Positions 3,285-39,090 of a DNA stretch of 64,000 nucleotides are shown piece by piece (the first letter of the stretch is position 1; every line of letters begins with the position of its first letter). The stretch is from Deltaproteobacteria bacterium (lineage in GTDB: Bacteria; Desulfobacterota; Dissulfuribacteria; Dissulfuribacterales; UBA3076). The stretch is from assembly GCA_018399745.1 (NCBI GenBank), contig JAGYNZ010000011.1, positions 1 through 64,000 on the forward strand, read 5' to 3'. The translations under genes and the position numbers were made by a program. Below the pieces are notes generated by a model. It searched no databases and was not told the DNA's origin. It was given only the letters and a program-made list of their open reading frames with translations.

Positions 3285-3300
3285 TGGTATAGTATTTGCT
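3285..3300 (+). promoter_or_regulatory. Sigma-54 type promoter for motA operon
   Basis: TGGTATAGTATTTGCT has GG and GC separated by exactly 10 bases, with the TTGC -12 block typical of RpoN promoters. It sits about 100 bp before motA with no other gene between. RpoN control of middle flagellar genes is established in many polarly flagellated proteobacteria. The -24 block is imperfect (TGGTAT rather than TGGCAC). Confidence 0.65.
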
Positions 3301-3399: not shown

Positions 3400-4161
3400 A
3401 TGGATCTGGGAACACTTTTAGGAATTGTAAGTGGTTTTGGCCTTGTGATCATTGCCATGAGTATGGGCGGCGGACTGGGTGCATTCATAAACGTACCATC
3501 TTTAATGATTGTATGTGGTGGTACTATGGGCGCTGTATTAATCAATTATCCTATCTCGGACGTCCTTGGGGTAATAAAAGTAGCGAAAAACGCATTTTTT
3601 AGTGAAAAGGTAAAGACTGAAAATATTATCCAGAAGTTGGTAGAGATGTCAAAAGTATCCCGACGCGAAGGGATATTAGGTTTAGAGAAGACGGTGAAAG
3701 ATATCGATGACCCTTTTTTCGCTAAGGGATTAACATTGATGATAGATGGTATTGAATCATCCAAACTATCCGAGCTGCTTGATACGGAAGTTGAGTACAT
3801 TGAGGAGAGGCATAGATTGGGTGCAGAGATATTTATGACAATGGGAAATTTTGCACCAGCCATGGGTATGATAGGTACATTGATCGGACTGGTAAAGATG
3901 TTGATGCAAATGGATGATCCGAGCTCGATAGGTCCGGCTATGGCAGTGGCCCTTATTACCACCTTTTATGGCGTTATTTTAGCAAATTTGGTCTTTCTTC
4001 CTATTTCCGGCAAATTAAGGACGCGGAGTGCCCAAGAACTCGCTGCGAAACAATTAATTATGAGTGGCATTCTATCTGTACAGTCAGGAGATAATCCAAG
4101 GATGTTAGAACAGAAGCTTCATTCATTTGTATCCCCGAAGGAAAGGAAGACGGTTTTTTAG
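3400..4161 (+). CDS. motA: Flagellar stator subunit MotA/PomA (first set)
   Basis: 253 aa. Hydrophobic segments lie near residues 1-22, 30-50, 148-170 and 182-203, with a cytoplasmic loop between the second and third containing the charged stretch SRREG (87-91) expected to face FliG. The conserved third and fourth helix motifs are APAMGMIGTLIGLV (152-165) and TTFYGVILAN (187-196). MotA forms the ring of the ion-driven stator that turns the rotor. It is followed 2 bp later by two consecutive motB-type genes, so this single MotA may pair with either or both. A second motA is at 36906-37763. Confidence 0.93.
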   Translation: MDLGTLLGIVSGFGLVIIAMSMGGGLGAFINVPSLMIVCGGTMGAVLINYPISDVLGVIKVAKNAFFSEKVKTENIIQKLVEMSKVSRREGILGLEKTVKDIDDPFFAKGLTLMIDGIESSKLSELLDTEVEYIEERHRLGAEIFMTMGNFAPAMGMIGTLIGLVKMLMQMDDPSSIGPAMAVALITTFYGVILANLVFLPISGKLRTRSAQELAAKQLIMSGILSVQSGDNPRMLEQKLHSFVSPKERKTVF

Positions 4162-4163
4162 GA

Positions 4164-4931
4164 ATGGGTTATGGATCCGATAAAAAGAAAAGGGGAAAAG
4201 AGGTATCTGCTGCTGGGTGGGAGTCAATATATTGTTCTCTCGTGCTGATCTTGGTGGCCTTTTTCGCCTTACTCGTATCTTATTCAACTATTGATGGTGG
4301 GAAAGTAACAAACTTTAAACGTGGATATGAGGGGTCATTAACCAAGTATAGTAGAGGTTTGTCCGCTAATCGTATGGTAGAAAATCCAGTATACACTGGC
4401 GGTACCGGTATACAGCCATCTATATCAGGTATTACAGAAACTGAGAAAGCTTCTATTGCATCAGTTATGCAATCATTAAAAGAATATTACAAAAAGATGG
4501 GATTAGGTGAATCTGTTAATATAGAGTGGACTCATGAAGGGTTTAAGGTTAATTTTGCAACCAATATATTGTTTGCCCCAGGACTCTCTACGGTGAATAG
4601 AGAGGCATATCCTTATCTTGATCAAATAATTACAGTAGCACTAAAAAATCCTTTTTTTATAAGAATCGAAGGGCATACCGATGACGTTCCGATAAATACT
4701 CCTGAATTTCCATCAAATTGGGAATTATCAACTGCCCGCTCGGTAAATGTCCTGCGATATTTTCTTAAAAATAAAATTCATGCGGAGAGATTAGCTGCCG
4801 TTGGATTCAGCCAATATCATCCTGTCAAAGCTAATGATACGTCTGAGGGCAGGCAGGAAAACCGCAGGGTTGAGATCTGCTTTCAGTTGCAGAAAGAACA
4901 AGGATTGAATTTATATCAGGGTATTAATTGA
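4164..4931 (+). CDS. MotB-like stator protein lacking the ion-binding aspartate
   Basis: 255 aa. A single N-terminal membrane helix (about residues 19-41) is followed by a linker and an OmpA/MotB peptidoglycan-binding domain with intact EGHTDD, NWELSTAR and NRRVE motifs (about 165-245). Aligning the helix to the next gene by the shared W..., FF and S.S positions puts Ser25 (TCT codon) where MotB has its essential ion-carrying Asp; no acidic residue lies inside the helix, only Glu20 at its edge. The gene starts 2 bp after motA, and its stop overlaps the TTG start of the true motB. It could be an accessory or regulatory stator subunit that anchors to the wall but does not conduct ions. Confidence 0.85.
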   Translation: MGYGSDKKKRGKEVSAAGWESIYCSLVLILVAFFALLVSYSTIDGGKVTNFKRGYEGSLTKYSRGLSANRMVENPVYTGGTGIQPSISGITETEKASIASVMQSLKEYYKKMGLGESVNIEWTHEGFKVNFATNILFAPGLSTVNREAYPYLDQIITVALKNPFFIRIEGHTDDVPINTPEFPSNWELSTARSVNVLRYFLKNKIHAERLAAVGFSQYHPVKANDTSEGRQENRRVEICFQLQKEQGLNLYQGIN

Positions 4932-5614
4932 AGAAGAATTCTAAAGAAGCAAGAGGGAAGGGCGGTAATTGGTTAGCTACCTTTAATGATATGGTTACTC
5001 TTCTTCTTACATTCTTTGTTTTAGTCCTTTCAATGTCGAAACTTGACGTGGCCAAAGTTAAAGAAGCCGTTTATGCAATAAATGATGCCTTCGGAATGCT
5101 AAGTTCTAACTCAATAGGTGAGATAAAGGCCTTCGAGCCCTTTGTTATTCCAATCAATAGCAGGCGCTCAGGTTTAAACGAAAAAAGAAGAGAATTAGCC
5201 GAGCACATAGACAGAATAGGCAATATGAATGCAAAGGTAATTGAAGGAGGAATTTCCATTATTCTCAAGGAAAAGTTATTTTTCAAAACAGGTATGTCCG
5301 AAATTGAAGAGAAAAATTATCCTGCTCTTAAAAATTTGTCTTCTATTCTTCAAAAGACTGACTGTCAAATAAGGGTGGAAGGGCATACAGATGATATACC
5401 TATAGACAACAAACGTTTTTCGTCTAACTGGGAACTTTCAGTGGCTCGAGCTGTGAACGTTGTTAAATATTTAATTTCTAAAGGCAATATCTCTCCAGCA
5501 AGGCTGTCTGCATCGGGTTATGGGGATTCAAGACCCCTTTATCCAAATGTGAGTGACCATAACAGGGAACTCAACAGAAGGGTGGGTATAATTTTGACTA
5601 TAAGCGAAAATTAA
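4928..5614 (+). CDS. motB: Flagellar stator subunit MotB (canonical Asp present)
   Basis: 228 aa from a TTG start at 4928 that overlaps the previous stop (TTGA). The N-terminus reads GNWLATFNDMVTLLLTFFVL, with Asp21 in the position of the ion-binding aspartate at the start of the only membrane helix. The C-terminal OmpA-like domain has EGHTDDIPI, NWELSVAR and NRRVG. MotB anchors the stator to peptidoglycan and carries the ion pathway together with MotA. The tight motA-motB-motB spacing suggests translational coupling of all three. Proton or sodium specificity cannot be read with confidence. Confidence 0.93.
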   Translation: MKKNSKEARGKGGNWLATFNDMVTLLLTFFVLVLSMSKLDVAKVKEAVYAINDAFGMLSSNSIGEIKAFEPFVIPINSRRSGLNEKRRELAEHIDRIGNMNAKVIEGGISIILKEKLFFKTGMSEIEEKNYPALKNLSSILQKTDCQIRVEGHTDDIPIDNKRFSSNWELSVARAVNVVKYLISKGNISPARLSASGYGDSRPLYPNVSDHNRELNRRVGIILTISEN

Positions 5615-5626
5615 TAAGGGAATTCA

Positions 5627-6124
5627 ATGGCTGAAGAAGAGATCAAAGAAGAAGCCGCTGTTGCGGAAATGGATTCAAAGAAAATTTCGCCGCTACGGAA
5701 ATGGATTATAATCTCCCTCGTGGTTGTGTTTTTGGGTGCCGTCGGTTCCGGAGGTTGGTGGTACTATAGGACCCACTTTTCCGAGCCTGCCGAAAAGGAA
5801 GTTGAACAAACGGTTGATGTGAAGAAGGGCATCTGGCCCATGGATAGCATTATCGTAAATTTGATGGATAACAATGGCGAAAGGTATTTGAAGATCACAA
5901 TCCAATTAGAAACCTCTAATGAAGATTGTATTCAGGAATTAGATTCATTAAAGCCGGAAATAATGGATGGTCTTTTGGATCTTCTTTCTTCAAAAGAATA
6001 CATACAAATAGTAGGTTTTGAGGGAAAACAACGTCTTAGAGATGAAATTGCCATACGCGTGAATAACTATCTTGACAAAGGTCAAATTACAAAAGTTTAC
6101 TTTACCGAATTTATTATACAATAG
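5627..6124 (+). CDS. fliL: Flagellar basal body-associated protein FliL
   Basis: 165 aa. A short acidic cytoplasmic N-terminus is followed by one membrane helix (about residues 25-47) and a periplasmic domain containing VNLMDNNGERYLKITIQLE, typical of FliL. The C-terminus ends in a beta strand VYFTEFIIQ as in the family. FliL surrounds or stabilises the stator near MotB. It lies 12 bp after motB and 31 bp before fliM, the standard order. Confidence 0.92.
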   Translation: MAEEEIKEEAAVAEMDSKKISPLRKWIIISLVVVFLGAVGSGGWWYYRTHFSEPAEKEVEQTVDVKKGIWPMDSIIVNLMDNNGERYLKITIQLETSNEDCIQELDSLKPEIMDGLLDLLSSKEYIQIVGFEGKQRLRDEIAIRVNNYLDKGQITKVYFTEFIIQ

Positions 6125-6155: not shown

Positions 6156-7133
6156 ATGTCCCAGATATTATCACAGGAAGAGGTAAACGCTCTCTTAAAC
6201 GGGATATCAGGAGGAGAGGTTGAAACTGAACAAGAGGAACTCCCTGATGCTTCAGCAACTCAAACTTACGATTTGACCAGCCAAGGTAAAGTCGTAAGAG
6301 AGAGGATGCCGGTCCTGGAGATGATAACTGAAAAGTTCGCCCGAATGTTTGGGACTACTTTATCATCTTTGTTGAAAAAGATCATCAATGTGAATGTCAT
6401 GCGTGTGGATATGCTCAAGTATGGTGAATTTATGAAAGGTATTCCTTTGCCTGCAAGCTTTCATATTTTCAGAATGGATCCCTTAGGGGGCAGTTCAGTA
6501 TTTATCGTTGAATCACAACTCATATTTGCATTTGTTGATATTATGTTCGGCGGATCTGGACGGGAGACATTTAAGATCGAGGGAAGAAATTTTACAACTA
6601 TAGAAAACAATATCATAAAAAGGGTTATTTTGAGTTCGTTGTCTGATTTTCAGACTGTATGGAAACCAATTATAGATCTCGATGTTATCTATCTGAGATC
6701 TGAAATTAATCCCCAATTCGCACAAATCATGGCATCCACTGATGTTGCGGTTGTTATAAATCTTGAGATCGATTTGGGTTTTTCTACCGGCACAATAACT
6801 TTATGTATGCCTTATTCAATGATAGAGCCAATCAAGGAAAAACTACATGGAGCTTATCAGGATGAAACACTAAGGAGCAATAAGGAGTGGGTCTCTAGAC
6901 TTGAACATGGTCTTAAATTATCAGAGGTGGATATGATCGTCGAGTTGGGCAGAACAGAGCTTACAGGAAGAGAGATTATAGGCTTGAAGAATGGTGATGT
7001 GATTCCCTTGGATCATTGCTACACTGATGATCTGGATATTTATATAGAAGATAAGATTAAATTTAGGGGAAAACCAGGAATATATAAAGGTAATCAGGCA
7101 GTCGAGATATCAGAGTTTACTATTATGCATTAA
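6156..7133 (+). CDS. fliM: Flagellar motor switch protein FliM
   Basis: 325 aa. The first residues MSQILSQEEVNALLNGI match the conserved N-terminal peptide that binds phosphorylated CheY, so a chemotaxis system probably exists elsewhere in this genome. The middle CheC-like domain (about 40-230) and the C-terminal SPOA domain (about 240-320, VELGRTELTGREIIGLKNGDV) are complete. FliM forms the C-ring wall and couples CheY binding to rotation switching. It is followed by fliN 13 bp later. Confidence 0.95.
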   Translation: MSQILSQEEVNALLNGISGGEVETEQEELPDASATQTYDLTSQGKVVRERMPVLEMITEKFARMFGTTLSSLLKKIINVNVMRVDMLKYGEFMKGIPLPASFHIFRMDPLGGSSVFIVESQLIFAFVDIMFGGSGRETFKIEGRNFTTIENNIIKRVILSSLSDFQTVWKPIIDLDVIYLRSEINPQFAQIMASTDVAVVINLEIDLGFSTGTITLCMPYSMIEPIKEKLHGAYQDETLRSNKEWVSRLEHGLKLSEVDMIVELGRTELTGREIIGLKNGDVIPLDHCYTDDLDIYIEDKIKFRGKPGIYKGNQAVEISEFTIMH

Positions 7134-9330: not shown

Positions 9331-10101
9331 ATGGATATTTCTCAAATAACTGCTGAACAACTGCAGCTCTTCATATTTATTTTACTACGAGTGAGTGCTA
9401 TGGTGGTTACTATTCCAATTTTTGGGAATAGAAATGTTCCAGTAAGGGCAAAGGGGGGACTGTCTTTGATGATAGCTTTTCTCCTTTTTCCTTTCATTAA
9501 ATTTCATCTTCCACCTCTTGAGATTTTTTCATTAATATTGGGAATGCTAGGAGAAGTTATTATTGGAATTATTATAGGATTTGCAGGTAGATTGGCCTTT
9601 GCTGGTGTACAAATTGCAGGTCAGCTTATAGGTTTTCAAATGGGTTTTGCTGTTGTGAACGTGTTTGATCCTATAACAAGTGAACAAGTTTCAATTATAG
9701 CTCAATTTCAGTATCTCATTGCAATGTTAATTTTTCTTGCTGTTGATGGTCACCACGTTTTTTTGTTTGCTATCGCAGAAAGCTATAGAATTATTTTGCC
9801 CTTTGATTTTTGCTTTTCAGTAGAATTAATGCAGTCAATTGTAGAAATTTCAAAGGATATTTTTATTATCGCAGTCAAGATAGGTGCTCCAGTTATTACT
9901 GCGTTATTGATGACAAGTATTGGATTCGGATTAATTGCCAGGACTGTTCCACAAATTAACATACTTATTGTCGGATTTCCTCTAAAGATAGCTATAGGGC
10001 TTATTGGTATAGGATTAAGTCTTCCCCTCTTTACGAAGATAATGGGTAGAGTTTTTTTAGCTTACGAAGTTAAGTTAAATATGCTTTTCCATCTGATGTG
10101 A
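9331..10101 (+). CDS. fliR: Flagellar export gate protein FliR
   Basis: 256 aa from ATG 9331; the adjacent in-frame TTG at 9328 is less likely. It has about six hydrophobic segments, an early LRVSAMVVTIPIFGNRNVPVRAK motif and GFAVVNVFDPITSEQVSII, all typical of FliR. FliR completes the export pore with FliP and FliQ and contacts FlhB. Unlike the gaps between fliP, fliQ and fliR, the gap to flhB downstream is over 300 bp and contains inverted repeats. Confidence 0.94.
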   Translation: MDISQITAEQLQLFIFILLRVSAMVVTIPIFGNRNVPVRAKGGLSLMIAFLLFPFIKFHLPPLEIFSLILGMLGEVIIGIIIGFAGRLAFAGVQIAGQLIGFQMGFAVVNVFDPITSEQVSIIAQFQYLIAMLIFLAVDGHHVFLFAIAESYRIILPFDFCFSVELMQSIVEISKDIFIIAVKIGAPVITALLMTSIGFGLIARTVPQINILIVGFPLKIAIGLIGIGLSLPLFTKIMGRVFLAYEVKLNMLFHLM

Positions 10102-19534: not shown

Positions 19535-19550
19535 TGGCATATAAGTTGCT
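19535..19550 (+). promoter_or_regulatory. Sigma-54 type promoter for flgF operon
   Basis: TGGCATATAAGTTGCT matches the RpoN consensus closely (TGGCA, then TTGC), with GG and GC exactly 10 bases apart. A transcript would start near 19561, leaving a short leader with AAAAGGTGAG before flgF ATG 19576. This is the better of the two sigma-54 candidates in the window. Confidence 0.8.
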
Positions 19551-29551: not shown

Positions 29552-30106
29552 ATGGCAGAAGTCAATAAGCCAATGTCGAATATCGGCTTCAGGCTAATGA
29601 AGCTCATATTCAAGGTTCGCGATTTTCTAGCACCTCGTTTGGATGTCTTAAAGGAAGCGGAAATACAATGCGGATTCTCCGTACTCGATTTCGGCTGCGG
29701 CCCTGGGAGTTACGTTGCACCACTCGTGGAAATGGTGGGGCCTTCCGGCAGGATTTATGCCCTCGATATACATCCCATTGCTGCTCAAGAGATCGAGAGG
29801 ATGGCGAAAAGCAAAGGGTTTGAGAACATCTTGACCATCGAGTCTGGTTGTCGCACAGGGCTCCCGGACAATAGTGTGGACACGGTCCTGTTGTATGATG
29901 TATTCCATAATCTTGTCTGCCCGGATGAAGTCCTGCGAGAAATCCACAGGGTGCTGAAAGATGACGGGACATTGTCTTTCAGCGACCACCATATGAAAGA
30001 GGAAGAGGTGCTCACCGGGGTGACTGGCTCTGGTATATTCAGATTTGTGAGAAAGGGCAGAAAGACATACAGTTTCGCGAAAGCAAATTATCAGACGAAG
30101 TTTTAA
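29552..30106 (+). CDS. Class I SAM-dependent methyltransferase
   Basis: 184 aa. The SAM-binding motif VLDFGCGPGSYV (about residues 45-56) is followed by IYALDIHPIA (motif II), LPDNSVDTVLLYDVFHNL and LREIHRVLKDDGTLSFSDHHM (motifs IV and V). It is a small methyltransferase-11/UbiE-like domain protein with no added domain to show its substrate. The C-terminal KGRKTYSFAK is typical of a close subgroup in anaerobes. It is not a flagellar gene and sits in an accessory insert between fliW and flaG. Confidence 0.8.
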   Translation: MAEVNKPMSNIGFRLMKLIFKVRDFLAPRLDVLKEAEIQCGFSVLDFGCGPGSYVAPLVEMVGPSGRIYALDIHPIAAQEIERMAKSKGFENILTIESGCRTGLPDNSVDTVLLYDVFHNLVCPDEVLREIHRVLKDDGTLSFSDHHMKEEEVLTGVTGSGIFRFVRKGRKTYSFAKANYQTKF

Positions 30107-30413
30107 AACATCGCCGAACGAGACGCGGCCATGGCAATAGCCGCACCTGCTCCGCTTTGATTAAGCAGGCAGGTAATACTGTTATGAAATATAAAAAGAA
30201 TTCTAAATTTTCCTTTCTGATTTTATTGGTCTTATCTTCATAATATTAAATAAAAAATACCGTTACTTTGATTTTTTCATTAAATCCGTGCATGGATTTT
30301 TGTGATTTGCAGTATTCTTAAAAAAAGTAGAGTCAGGTTAATATATGAGGAAGGTTTAGGTGAACCTTTCAGATACTGGATAAAGAGAAAATTTTTGGAG
30401 AAAATAAAAAATC
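30107..30413. other. Gap between methyltransferases with several hairpins
   Basis: About 300 AT-rich bases without a gene. Short inverted repeats include GCGGC / GCCGC (30125-30144), CCTGCT / AGCAGG (30146-30169), AAATCC / GGATTT followed by T's (30282-30301), and AAGGTT / AACCTT (30351-30368). The first pair of hairpins directly follows the upstream methyltransferase. None is strong enough to call a terminator or riboswitch. Confidence 0.45.
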
Positions 30414-31187
30414 ATGGTTGATGAAAATAGATCAATTCACGAGTTTGATTTTAAATTAATCTGCGAATATTTTTCGGGCATGGAACGACAAGGGCCCGGG
30501 AGCCCCGAAGTAACTATTAAAGCCTTGAGCTTTATTGATAATCTGACAAACGAATCAAAAATTGCTGATATAGGCTGTGGCACCGGTGGTCAGACTGTGG
30601 TGATGGCCGAACATACGTCAGGACATATTACCGGCATTGATTTGTTTGCCGACTTTATAGATATTTTAAATGCTAATATCAAGAGGCTGAATCTCCAGAA
30701 TAGAGTGGATGGTGTTGTTGGTTCAATGGACAATCTTTCTTTTCAAAACGAAGAGCTAGATTTAATCTGGTCGGAAGGGGCAATCTATAATATCGGGTTT
30801 GAACGGGGCATGAAGGAATGGCATAAATTCCTGAAAAAAGGTGGTTTTATTGCCGTTTCAGAAGCTTCCTGGTTCACTGAAAAGCGGCCTGCCGAAATCG
30901 ATAGGTTTTGGAAAGATGCTTATCCGGAGATGGGCATCATTTCAGATAAAGTCAAACAGATGGAAAAAGCCGGATATGTTCCAGTGGCTACTTTTGTCTT
31001 ACCTGAAAACTGCTGGACTGAACATTTTTATGCTCCGCAGGCTTTAGCCCAGGAAAATTTTCTGAAAAAATATGCAGGCAATAAAAACGCCGAAGATCTG
31101 GTGAAGAATGAAAGACATGAAGCCGAATTATATTATAAATATAAAGAGTTTTACGGATATGTATTCTACATAGGGAAAAAATTCTAG
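30414..31187 (+). CDS. Class I SAM-dependent methyltransferase
   Basis: 257 aa. Motif I is [13 protein letters not shown] (about 48-60), motif [14 protein letters not shown], then [34 protein letters not shown] and a [10 protein letters not shown] strand. The longer C-terminal part with EHFYAPQ and a Tyr-rich end [15 protein letters not shown] is complete. It resembles small-molecule methyltransferases of the methyltransferase-11 group; the substrate is unknown. Its stop lies about 10 bases before a truncated higB fragment. Confidence 0.8.
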
Positions 31188-36905: not shown

Positions 36906-37763
36906 TCATTTGGAAACAGGCTGCAGAATGCGGCTTTCCGTCGAGGCTGATTGAACGGCTTCCGGCTTTATCTTGAAACGTTCCTGAATACGTTTTGCAG
37001 ATATGATTCTGCCCTTGCGGGACGAGGGGGTTAAAAAAGATTTCAACTTCATCTCAAGTACCCTGGGGTTCAATTCGCTTTCAATGGCACTGACCCCTTC
37101 GAGGATGATTTTTTGCAGGAGCAATTCGTGATCTGTCCTTTCGCGCATATGGGCTGCAAACGGGAGAAGAAACAGATTTGCAAACACCACCCCGTATAGG
37201 GTAGAGGTAAGGGCGACAGGTATTGCAGTAATGATCACGGAGACATCACCCGGGCTGGCGAGCATGCCGATGAGTCCCACGACGCTGCCGACGAGTCCGA
37301 AAGAGGGACATATCTCTGCAAGCGTTCTGAGAACTCGTTCGGATTCCTCCCTTCGTATTTTGAAAAAATACATTTCCGTATTCAGAATCTCCGTAATCTG
37401 TGCCTTTGTGTAGCCGTCTACCAGAAATCCGAGGGCCCGTCTCAGGAAGATGATAGACGTTTCATCTTCATCCTCCTGGAGGGATAGGATGCCCTTGAGC
37501 CTGCTCTTTACAGAAAGGTCTACGAGGATTTCCACGATGTCTTCAGGTGTTTTTATCCTGGTCCGGTAGGAAGCAAGCAAGACCTTAAGGACAATGGAGA
37601 GGCGTTCTGTGCGAAAACTGAGAAAGGCTGCTCCAAACGTGCCGCCCAGCACGATAAAAAGTGCGGCTATATTAAAATAGAGTCCCATATTGCCATTAAC
37701 GGCGAATCCGAATGCAATAAGCAGGGCACAGATTCCCAGTCCAATAACCGTTCTTTGTTCCAC
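36906..37763 (-). CDS. motA: Flagellar stator subunit MotA/PomA (second set)
   Basis: 285 aa from GTG 37763. Four hydrophobic segments are present, with LFIVLGGTFGAAFLSF early, a charged cytoplasmic loop (SVKSRLKGILSLQ), then CPSFGLVGSVVGLIGMLASPGDVSVI and VALTSTLYGVVFANLFLLPFA. The C-terminal tail of about 40 basic residues is longer than in the first MotA. It starts 18 bp after its partner motB (37782). This is an independent stator set and could differ in ion use or in expression from the set at 3400. Confidence 0.92.
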   Translation of the reverse strand: MEQRTVIGLGICALLIAFGFAVNGNMGLYFNIAALFIVLGGTFGAAFLSFRTERLSIVLKVLLASYRTRIKTPEDIVEILVDLSVKSRLKGILSLQEDEDETSIIFLRRALGFLVDGYTKAQITEILNTEMYFFKIRREESERVLRTLAEICPSFGLVGSVVGLIGMLASPGDVSVIITAIPVALTSTLYGVVFANLFLLPFAAHMRERTDHELLLQKIILEGVSAIESELNPRVLEMKLKSFLTPSSRKGRIISAKRIQERFKIKPEAVQSASTESRILQPVSK

Positions 37764-37781
37764 CTTCCTGCTACTCCTTTC

Positions 37782-38732
37782 TTATAATATGGAACTGTAA
37801 ATTCCAGATGTATCTGGAACAGCGTAGGGCTTTTCTTTGGTCATAATGATTTCGACACGCCTGTTTGCGGCACGATTTTCCGGACCGTGATTTGCCTTAA
37901 TGGGTTGATAAAAGGCGTGTCCGCTGACAAACAATTTTTCTGCCGGGATATGCATATCTTCAATAAGAAATCGCGCGACCCGGCAGGCGCGCATGGTTGA
38001 AAGCTCCCAGTTAGAGGGAAACTGTTCAGTATGAATAGGCAGGTCATCAGTGTGTCCTACCAGATTCAACATGTAAGGCGTATTGCGAAGTATTTCAGCG
38101 ATTTTTTGAAGAGACGCTTTGGCCTCTTCTCGAAGCTCCGCCTTACCTGTATCGAATAAGAAGTCGCCCCTGAGAATAATCCGTACCGCTTTGTCCTGGA
38201 CCAGGTTTACAGAAGCGAATGGATGCAATTTTTCCATATCCAGTGTCTCCCTGCTCAGATCATATACCTTCTGGATTAGATCTTCCTCATGTTCCGGCTG
38301 TATCTTATCTATATCTACGGGAAAGGTTTTCTCCGGAACGGCTTGGGTTGAAATGATTTCATCTGTTTGCAAATCGGTGAAAGGGGTGTGATAGACATAC
38401 ATCACGGCAAAAAGGATGAACATCATCATCATGAGATCAGACCAAGGGATAGACCAGTGAAGTGTCCTGGCCATTTTTCCGCCAAAAAGGAAATTGTCAC
38501 TGCCACTGCTCGAAAGGCCTGCAAAGGCTGACCCTGCAGCCAATTCAAATCCATCGTTTAGAGGGGAAAAATGGGGTTCGGGCATCTCTGAGCCCACACC
38601 TTTTTTACTGGAGAAGAAAATTTCGTCCAGTTCTTCTGTCCCCTTATGGCAGCAGGATTGAGATGTCAGGACAGAATTGCTGATAGGTGTGTCTTCTTTG
38701 TTCTCTTTCAATGTCTTTCCAGTCTGAATCAT
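37782..38732 (-). CDS. motB: Flagellar stator subunit MotB/PomB with long N-terminal extension (second set)
   Basis: 316 aa from ATG 38732, which has AGG about 7 bases upstream; an ATG at 38789 is in frame but lacks a ribosome site. The membrane helix LHWSIPWSDLMMMMFILFAVM has Asp99 in the ion-binding position. The OmpA-like domain has VGHTDDLPIH, NWELSTMRA and NRRVEIIM. About 90 polar residues precede the helix, where MotB usually has 20-30; this stretch contains Cys-Cys and many Ser/Glu and has no recognised domain. It is co-directional with motA 18 bp later. Confidence 0.88.
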   Translation of the reverse strand: MIQTGKTLKENKEDTPISNSVLTSQSCCHKGTEELDEIFFSSKKGVGSEMPEPHFSPLNDGFELAAGSAFAGLSSSGSDNFLFGGKMARTLHWSIPWSDLMMMMFILFAVMYVYHTPFTDLQTDEIISTQAVPEKTFPVDIDKIQPEHEEDLIQKVYDLSRETLDMEKLHPFASVNLVQDKAVRIILRGDFLFDTGKAELREEAKASLQKIAEILRNTPYMLNLVGHTDDLPIHTEQFPSNWELSTMRACRVARFLIEDMHIPAEKLFVSGHAFYQPIKANHGPENRAANRRVEIIMTKEKPYAVPDTSGIYSSIL

Positions 38733-39090
38733 CTCTGTACCTTTTATTCCGCAGTTTTTCTGTATCACCACGTTGTAAGCCAAATTCATGCCAACAGGTA
38801 AAAATTTTATAACCCGCTGAAAATTAACAGAATGTTGGGGAATGTGACTTGCGGTACCTCTGGAGAAGGAAATATTTTCCGGGTTCTGCTCCTGTTCCCG
38901 GAAATACCCACGAGACCTTTTTTTCGCAACGTATGTTATAAACTGAAGTATGACAGTGTTGTGCTGAAAATTTTGTTATTGAAAAGAGATCAAGAACGAC
39001 CTGAAACTGCAATGTATTTTTACGTGTCCGGTTATACGGAAGAGGTCGTCATTTCTTGACCCATTTCAGCCCTCAACGTATAGTCTCTGT
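38733..39090. other. Divergent gap between motB and rnr
   Basis: About 360 bases between divergent genes. A strong sigma-70 type promoter for rnr ends it (39056-39084). No sigma-54 or sigma-28 promoter for the minus-strand stator pair could be recognised. Small frames here lack ribosome sites and family features. Confidence 0.55.
39056..39084 (+). promoter_or_regulatory. Sigma-70 type promoter at rnr
   Basis: TTGACC (39056-39061), exactly 17 bases, then TATAGT (39079-39084). The rnr ATG is at 39091, only 7 bases after the -10 box, where transcription should start. No Shine-Dalgarno lies between, so the message may be leaderless. Confidence 0.75.

Follow-up and report, generated by a model that had tools for sequence, protein, structure and literature searches.

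The window, a stretch of 64,000 nucleotides from a contig of a Deltaproteobacteria bacterium, contains a flagellar stator cassette in which a single motA gene is followed by two motB-like genes, fliL, and fliM (Table 1). The first motB-like gene, hereafter motB*, begins 2 bp after motA and overlaps the second by 4 bp. Tight linkage of the first MotB with one motA and one normal motB is borne out; the first-pass annotation had read this spacing as a sign of fixed stoichiometry, which gene order alone does not show. The cassette MotA obtains its best NCBIfam score with PomA, at a value under that model's cut-off. The pore residues P153, T160, T187, T188, and P201 are present in the window and invariant in the MotA proteins of all 25 cassettes compared. 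Its PomA-like character suggests that the driving ion of the stator is probably Na+. A pattern search identifies four candidate sigma-54-like sites in the window, against 0.55 expected from shuffling. Besides the site upstream of motA, such sequences occur at 9603-9618 and 19535-19550, the latter just ahead of a flagellar rod/hook gene (19546).

Table 1. Coordinates of the stator cassette, its sequence features, and related loci in the window.
Feature	Position	Strand	Description and basis
sigma-54-type promoter-like site (TGGTATAGTATTTGCT)	3285..3300	+	Pattern search; ~100 bp upstream of motA
motA	3400..4161	+	253 aa; Pfam MotA_ExbB 3e-30; PomA/MotP-like; sole MotA of the cassette
motB*	4164..4931	+	255 aa, ATG start; OmpA domain 1e-15; MotB paralogue without the ion-binding Asp
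Predicted transmembrane helix, MotB* residues 17-42	4212..4289	+	AlphaFold2 model
Ser25 codon (TCT) at the ion-binding Asp position, MotB*	4236..4238	+	Alignment
OmpA-like peptidoglycan-binding domain, MotB* residues 119-245	4518..4898	+	Pfam OmpA, model, Foldseek, conserved motif
motB	4928..5614	+	228 aa, TTG start; Pfam MotB_plug 7e-16, OmpA 1e-19; Asp21 intact
Asp21 codon (GAT), ion-binding, second MotB	4988..4990	+	Alignment
fliL	5627..6124	+	Pfam FliL 2e-23; stator-associated; synteny
fliM, rotor switch protein	6156..7133	+	Synteny; continues the cluster
Second, divergent motA/motB pair	36906-38789	-	MotA-like, MotA_ExbB 3e-17; window's genome

The two B subunits differ at the ion-binding site. 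When the first MotB (...GWESIYCSLVLILVAFFALLVSYS...) is aligned with the second (...NWLATFNDMVTLLLTFFVLVLSMS...), Ser25 of MotB* superimposes onto Asp21 of its partner and onto the Asp of all 25 single MotBs. This position is Asp in 22/22 second copies as well, and the 25 aligned first copies have Ser (nine), Ala (eight), Gly (five), Asn (one), or Asp (two). The window's MotB* is among the 23 of 25 first copies that lack the essential ion-binding Asp that marks membership in the MotB/PomB family. Because this family-defining residue is missing, we regard MotB* as a MotB-derived paralogue and not as a normal MotB. Alignment to the MotB families reveals no other Asp or Glu at the ion-binding position, and a shifted alignment that masks an Asp is ruled out by the same comparisons; the initial claim of a first MotB without the ion-binding Asp therefore survives its own proposed check. 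Its corollary, that the membrane helix contains no acidic residue, is correct for the ion site and incorrect for the cytoplasmic end of the predicted helix, where Glu20 is found five residues ahead of Ser25. Glu20 is no general substitute, since only 7/25 first copies (from the window and six relatives) have Glu at this position. Furthermore, a Thr or Ser three residues past the ion site is present in 25/25 single MotBs and 21/22 second copies; first copies mostly contain Leu, Ile, Met, or Val.

The two Asp-bearing first copies have different settings. The first MotB of G412 (locus L195, 3352-4155) retains Asp and groups with the Asn-bearing copy of G266, a sister in which Asn may represent an intermediate state. 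In G144 (locus L196, 1933-2676, minus strand), the first MotB has Asp and its relatives are Asp-less, including one in the same genus. The helix region of the G144 first copy resembles that of its own second copy, with identities of up to 0.75 in 60-nt windows and ~0.25-0.5 elsewhere, and its Asp looks like the product of gene conversion from that second copy.

MotB* has one transmembrane helix, at its N-terminus, that contains the MotB FF motif (F34 in 25/25 and F33 in 23/25 first copies), and an OmpA-like peptidoglycan-binding domain. The latter retains D173, R192, and N233, in agreement with the first-pass description of an intact domain. T172 is found in 25/25 first copies versus 18/22 partners, and N224 in 25/25 versus 17/22. 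MotB_plug (PF13677) scores MotB* at 20.2 bits and the second MotB at 57.9 bits, with a cut-off of 24. The AlphaFold2 model of MotB* predicts helix 17-42 (pLDDT ~94 over residues 21-40), a second helix spanning residues 45-62, a low-confidence linker, and a high-confidence OmpA-like domain (pLDDT >90). Foldseek matches this model to MotS, a Desulfovibrio MotB-like protein, PomB, and MotB; the PDB relatives of MotB* are MotB, PomB, and MotS.

The order motA, Asp-less motB, Asp-bearing motB, fliL, fliM recurs across the sampled phylum, a group of sulfate-reducer relatives that we infer to be Desulfobacterota. The name follows from a Syntrophobacteria MAG in the phylum, locus L124, whose genome shares contig number, coordinates, and score with G080. 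At least 20 of the 395 genomes sampled, from 14 families, contain a first copy without the Asp, and all carrier counts for the cassette are lower bounds. motA is directly upstream of the first motB wherever this is visible, the context is a flagellar cluster, and fliL comes next in nearly every cassette with enough contig downstream. The search for motA-motB(Ser)-motB(Asp) triplets in related genomes that had been suggested at the outset is thus successful. For example, the congeners G003 and G006 encode the same Ser version of MotB* (76-77% identity), and the Asp-less cassette also appears in the MAGs L073 (Desulfobacterales) and L078 (Desulfobacteraceae). These recurrences rule out a cassette private to the window's genome. 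It is not a feature of the window's order either, because in the order-mates examined the stator genes are a normal motA-motB pair, with Asp in MotB and a MotA of another lineage. Among the draft genomes of genus g1 (G001-G007), only G003 and G006 have the cassette. The flagellar genes of this genus are patchy in these drafts, and flagellin is found in G002 only. A search of 148 genomes from the phylum of a Thermodesulfovibrionia MAG gave matches of at most 231 bits, with no tandem copies among them; most cassette members score 260-330 bits and those of family f48 225-228, so divergent copies in that phylum are possible. A plasmid search returned nothing close.

The MotA proteins of all 25 cassettes form one clade apart from the MotA of pairs (SH-aLRT 90), and a tree of the periplasmic portion, with the helix excluded, places all 25 first MotBs in one clade with moderate support (80/73). 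With the helix included, the four f48 first copies fall beside their own second copies, and an ancient, single origin of the cassette in the phylum is therefore likely, though not proven. The nearest relatives of the window's cassette are those of G377 and G419 (L073), not those of the order-mates, which suggests horizontal acquisition. For the first MotB, dN/dS is 0.34-0.41 in congener pairs with the window and 0.55 for G003 versus G006; the congener values are 0.23 for the second MotB and 0.08-0.10 for MotA. Between close relatives, 21-25 of 27 helix residues are identical, above the OmpA domain or the linker. Against G377/G419, MotB* of the window matches at 22/27 helix positions, ~60% of the OmpA domain, and ~25% of the linker. 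These values indicate that motB* is under purifying selection and that the protein is constrained, its helix most of all. A pseudogene or sequencing artefact is ruled out by this selection and by the recurrence of the Asp-less state in independent genomes. Decay of the first gene in relatives, the other refuting outcome named at the outset, is not seen; the relatives have an intact, conserved gene.

The first MotB is always found beside the same MotA lineage, and an Asp-bearing MotB is present wherever the contig permits a view. In 10 genomes of 91-100% completeness (G066, G089, G112, G124, G172, G195, G309, G322, G358, and G377), no MotA besides that of the cassette was found by a MotA search (E <= 1e-10) combined with a MotA_N search, or by the MotA search alone for G322. 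The second MotB of G195 is beyond the contig end, and that of G089 is cut by it. These single-MotA genomes imply that MotB* either shares its MotA with the Asp-bearing MotB or uses no MotA.

We propose that MotB* pairs with MotB to make a heterodimeric axle within one MotA pentamer (MotA5:MotB*1:MotB1). Ions, probably Na+, would be carried by the MotB helix only, and the MotB* helix would serve as the non-conducting half of the coiled coil and as a second wall anchor. We give a MotA5 ring around such a heterodimer with one ion-binding Asp slightly less than an even chance. The wider reading, a natural flagellar stator whose heterodimeric MotB axle has one ion-binding helix, with five ions per revolution and a built-in asymmetry, is advanced tentatively. 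Sequence data favor mixed dimers without proving them. In support are the Asp-less states of the first copies set against the constant Asp of second copies and single MotBs, the retained FF motif in a helix that is the most conserved part of the protein, and dN/dS of 0.34-0.41. Furthermore, the sole MotA of 10 genomes shows that MotB* occurs together with just one type of MotA, and the distinct clades of cassette MotA and first MotB and the 2-bp/overlapping gene arrangement point in the same direction.

Additional support comes from the predicted dimer interface, for which residues 24, 27, 31, 34, and 38 were taken from the coiled-coil register of E. coli MotB (PMC10659934). At position 38 (equivalent to E. 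coli W45), the mean volume is 120 Å³ in first copies, 175 in partners, and 179 in singles. Of 22 pairs, 21 combine a small residue in MotB* with a large one in its partner; only G144, whose first copy has Asp, departs from the pattern. Such small-large pairing fits knob-and-hole packing of a heterodimer; it is correlative and confounded by phylogeny, and could alternatively reflect relaxed packing in a protein of unrelated role.

Several observations argue against the heterodimer. MotB with Asp changed to Ala or Asn is non-functional and dominant negative on co-expression in E. coli, Salmonella, and probably P. aeruginosa (PMC12288467), and published models hold that a step requires both Asp residues to be protonated (PMC9389320, PMC10659934). 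Linker lengths of the two copies are uncorrelated (Spearman 0.13, p 0.57), and linker co-variation was dropped as a line of evidence for lack of signal. Finally, two first copies (G412 and G144) have Asp, and seven, the window's included, have Glu20.

Alternatively, MotB* may pair with itself inside a MotA pentamer, giving non-conducting units that occupy motor positions alongside MotA5:MotB2 and serve as a brake, clutch, or spacer, with the ratio of the two tuning torque. This reading is helped by the MotB helix signature and wall domain that MotB* retains and by the one MotA common to both B subunits, and Asp-less mutants do still join the motor, more weakly (PMC12288467, PMC11673145). We consider this unlikely: a homodimer would have a cavity where the MotB* helix places its small core residue, known motors show a dominant-negative effect of dead units, and a costly brake in nearly every cassette calls for a benefit, of which none is seen. 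Just as improbable in our estimation is a MotB* that resides outside the MotA channel as a membrane-tethered wall anchor or scaffold, recruiting or holding stators, perhaps with FliL, whose gene adjoins the cassette downstream. This role can be likened to that of the auxiliary periplasmic scaffolds that serve the stators in other motors, and conservation of the peptidoglycan-binding residues in MotB* equals or exceeds that in its partner. A scaffold could, however, do without the strongly conserved transmembrane helix and its channel-type FF motif. Still less probable is a part for MotB* in ion transfer through another group, either Glu20 or a site shared with MotA, which would create two unequal ion sites. 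Glu20 is well placed at the cytoplasmic helix end in the window and six relatives, and many copies have a polar Ser, Asn, Thr, or Cys near the site, but 18/25 first copies have no Glu at position 20 and several (Ala or Gly at 25, no acidic helix residue) offer no candidate group at all. Finally, a decaying, functionless duplicate is scarcely credible and refuted in the main: dN/dS is above that of motA (0.4 versus 0.1) and somewhat above that of motB, but frames are open in 14 families under purifying selection, with the peptidoglycan motif and helix conserved.

In current models of 5:2 ion-driven motors, the work alternates between two identical Asp residues. The loss of Asp from the first MotB suggests a motor with half the usual number of ion-binding sites, and a MotB*:MotB axle, if real, contradicts models that require two alternating Asp residues. 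Five ions per turn, according to a review, demands an entirely new model. The choice between one and two Asp residues (5 versus 10 ions per turn) would become testable. Because the protein has persisted through the evolutionary loss of one Asp, with a single MotA retained in several genomes, the cassette provides a natural system for asking whether one ion site suffices and what the other B subunit does.

The cassette resembles MotA5:MotB2 and PomA5:PomB2 in its MotA pore residues, its one-helix MotB with an OmpA-like wall domain, and its flagellar cluster. In those stators the B subunits are identical and all bear the essential Asp, whereas the cassette adds an Asp-less B subunit in the same operon. 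The nearest precedents are Aquifex motB1/motB2 and Myxococcus AglQ/AglS. The motA-motB1-motB2 operon of Aquifex aeolicus encodes two MotBs with 97% identity between their helices, and either one, as a chimera, is active with MotA in E. coli (PMC4525482). A related Aquificota locus (L144) also has Asp in both copies, in contrast to the first copy of the cassette, which is Asp-less in 23/25. The Myxococcus xanthus AglR-AglQ-AglS system combines one MotA with two MotB homologues, and whether these form heterodimers is an open question (PMC9389320). However, AglRQS is a gliding machine with a conserved Asp described in both AglQ and AglS (PMC9389320); the cassette is flagellar and its first copy Asp-less. 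Laboratory MotB variants D32A, D32N, and D33N (PMC12288467, PMC11673145) likewise place an Asp-less MotB beside a wild-type copy, but these are defective and dominant negative, whereas the natural MotB* is conserved, and in several genomes its gene accompanies the sole motA. A search of literature available without subscription found no natural Asp-less MotB in such a cassette, which is weak evidence of novelty.

The second stator locus of the window encodes a 335-aa MotB-like protein that has a long N-terminal extension and a helix (WSIPWSDLMMMMFILFAV) with Asp present, and shows no MotB_plug match. Homologues are found in the congeners G005 and G006. We also note two methyltransferase-like genes (29552-31187) between the fliW-like (28662) and fliD-like (33392) genes of the flagellar cluster.
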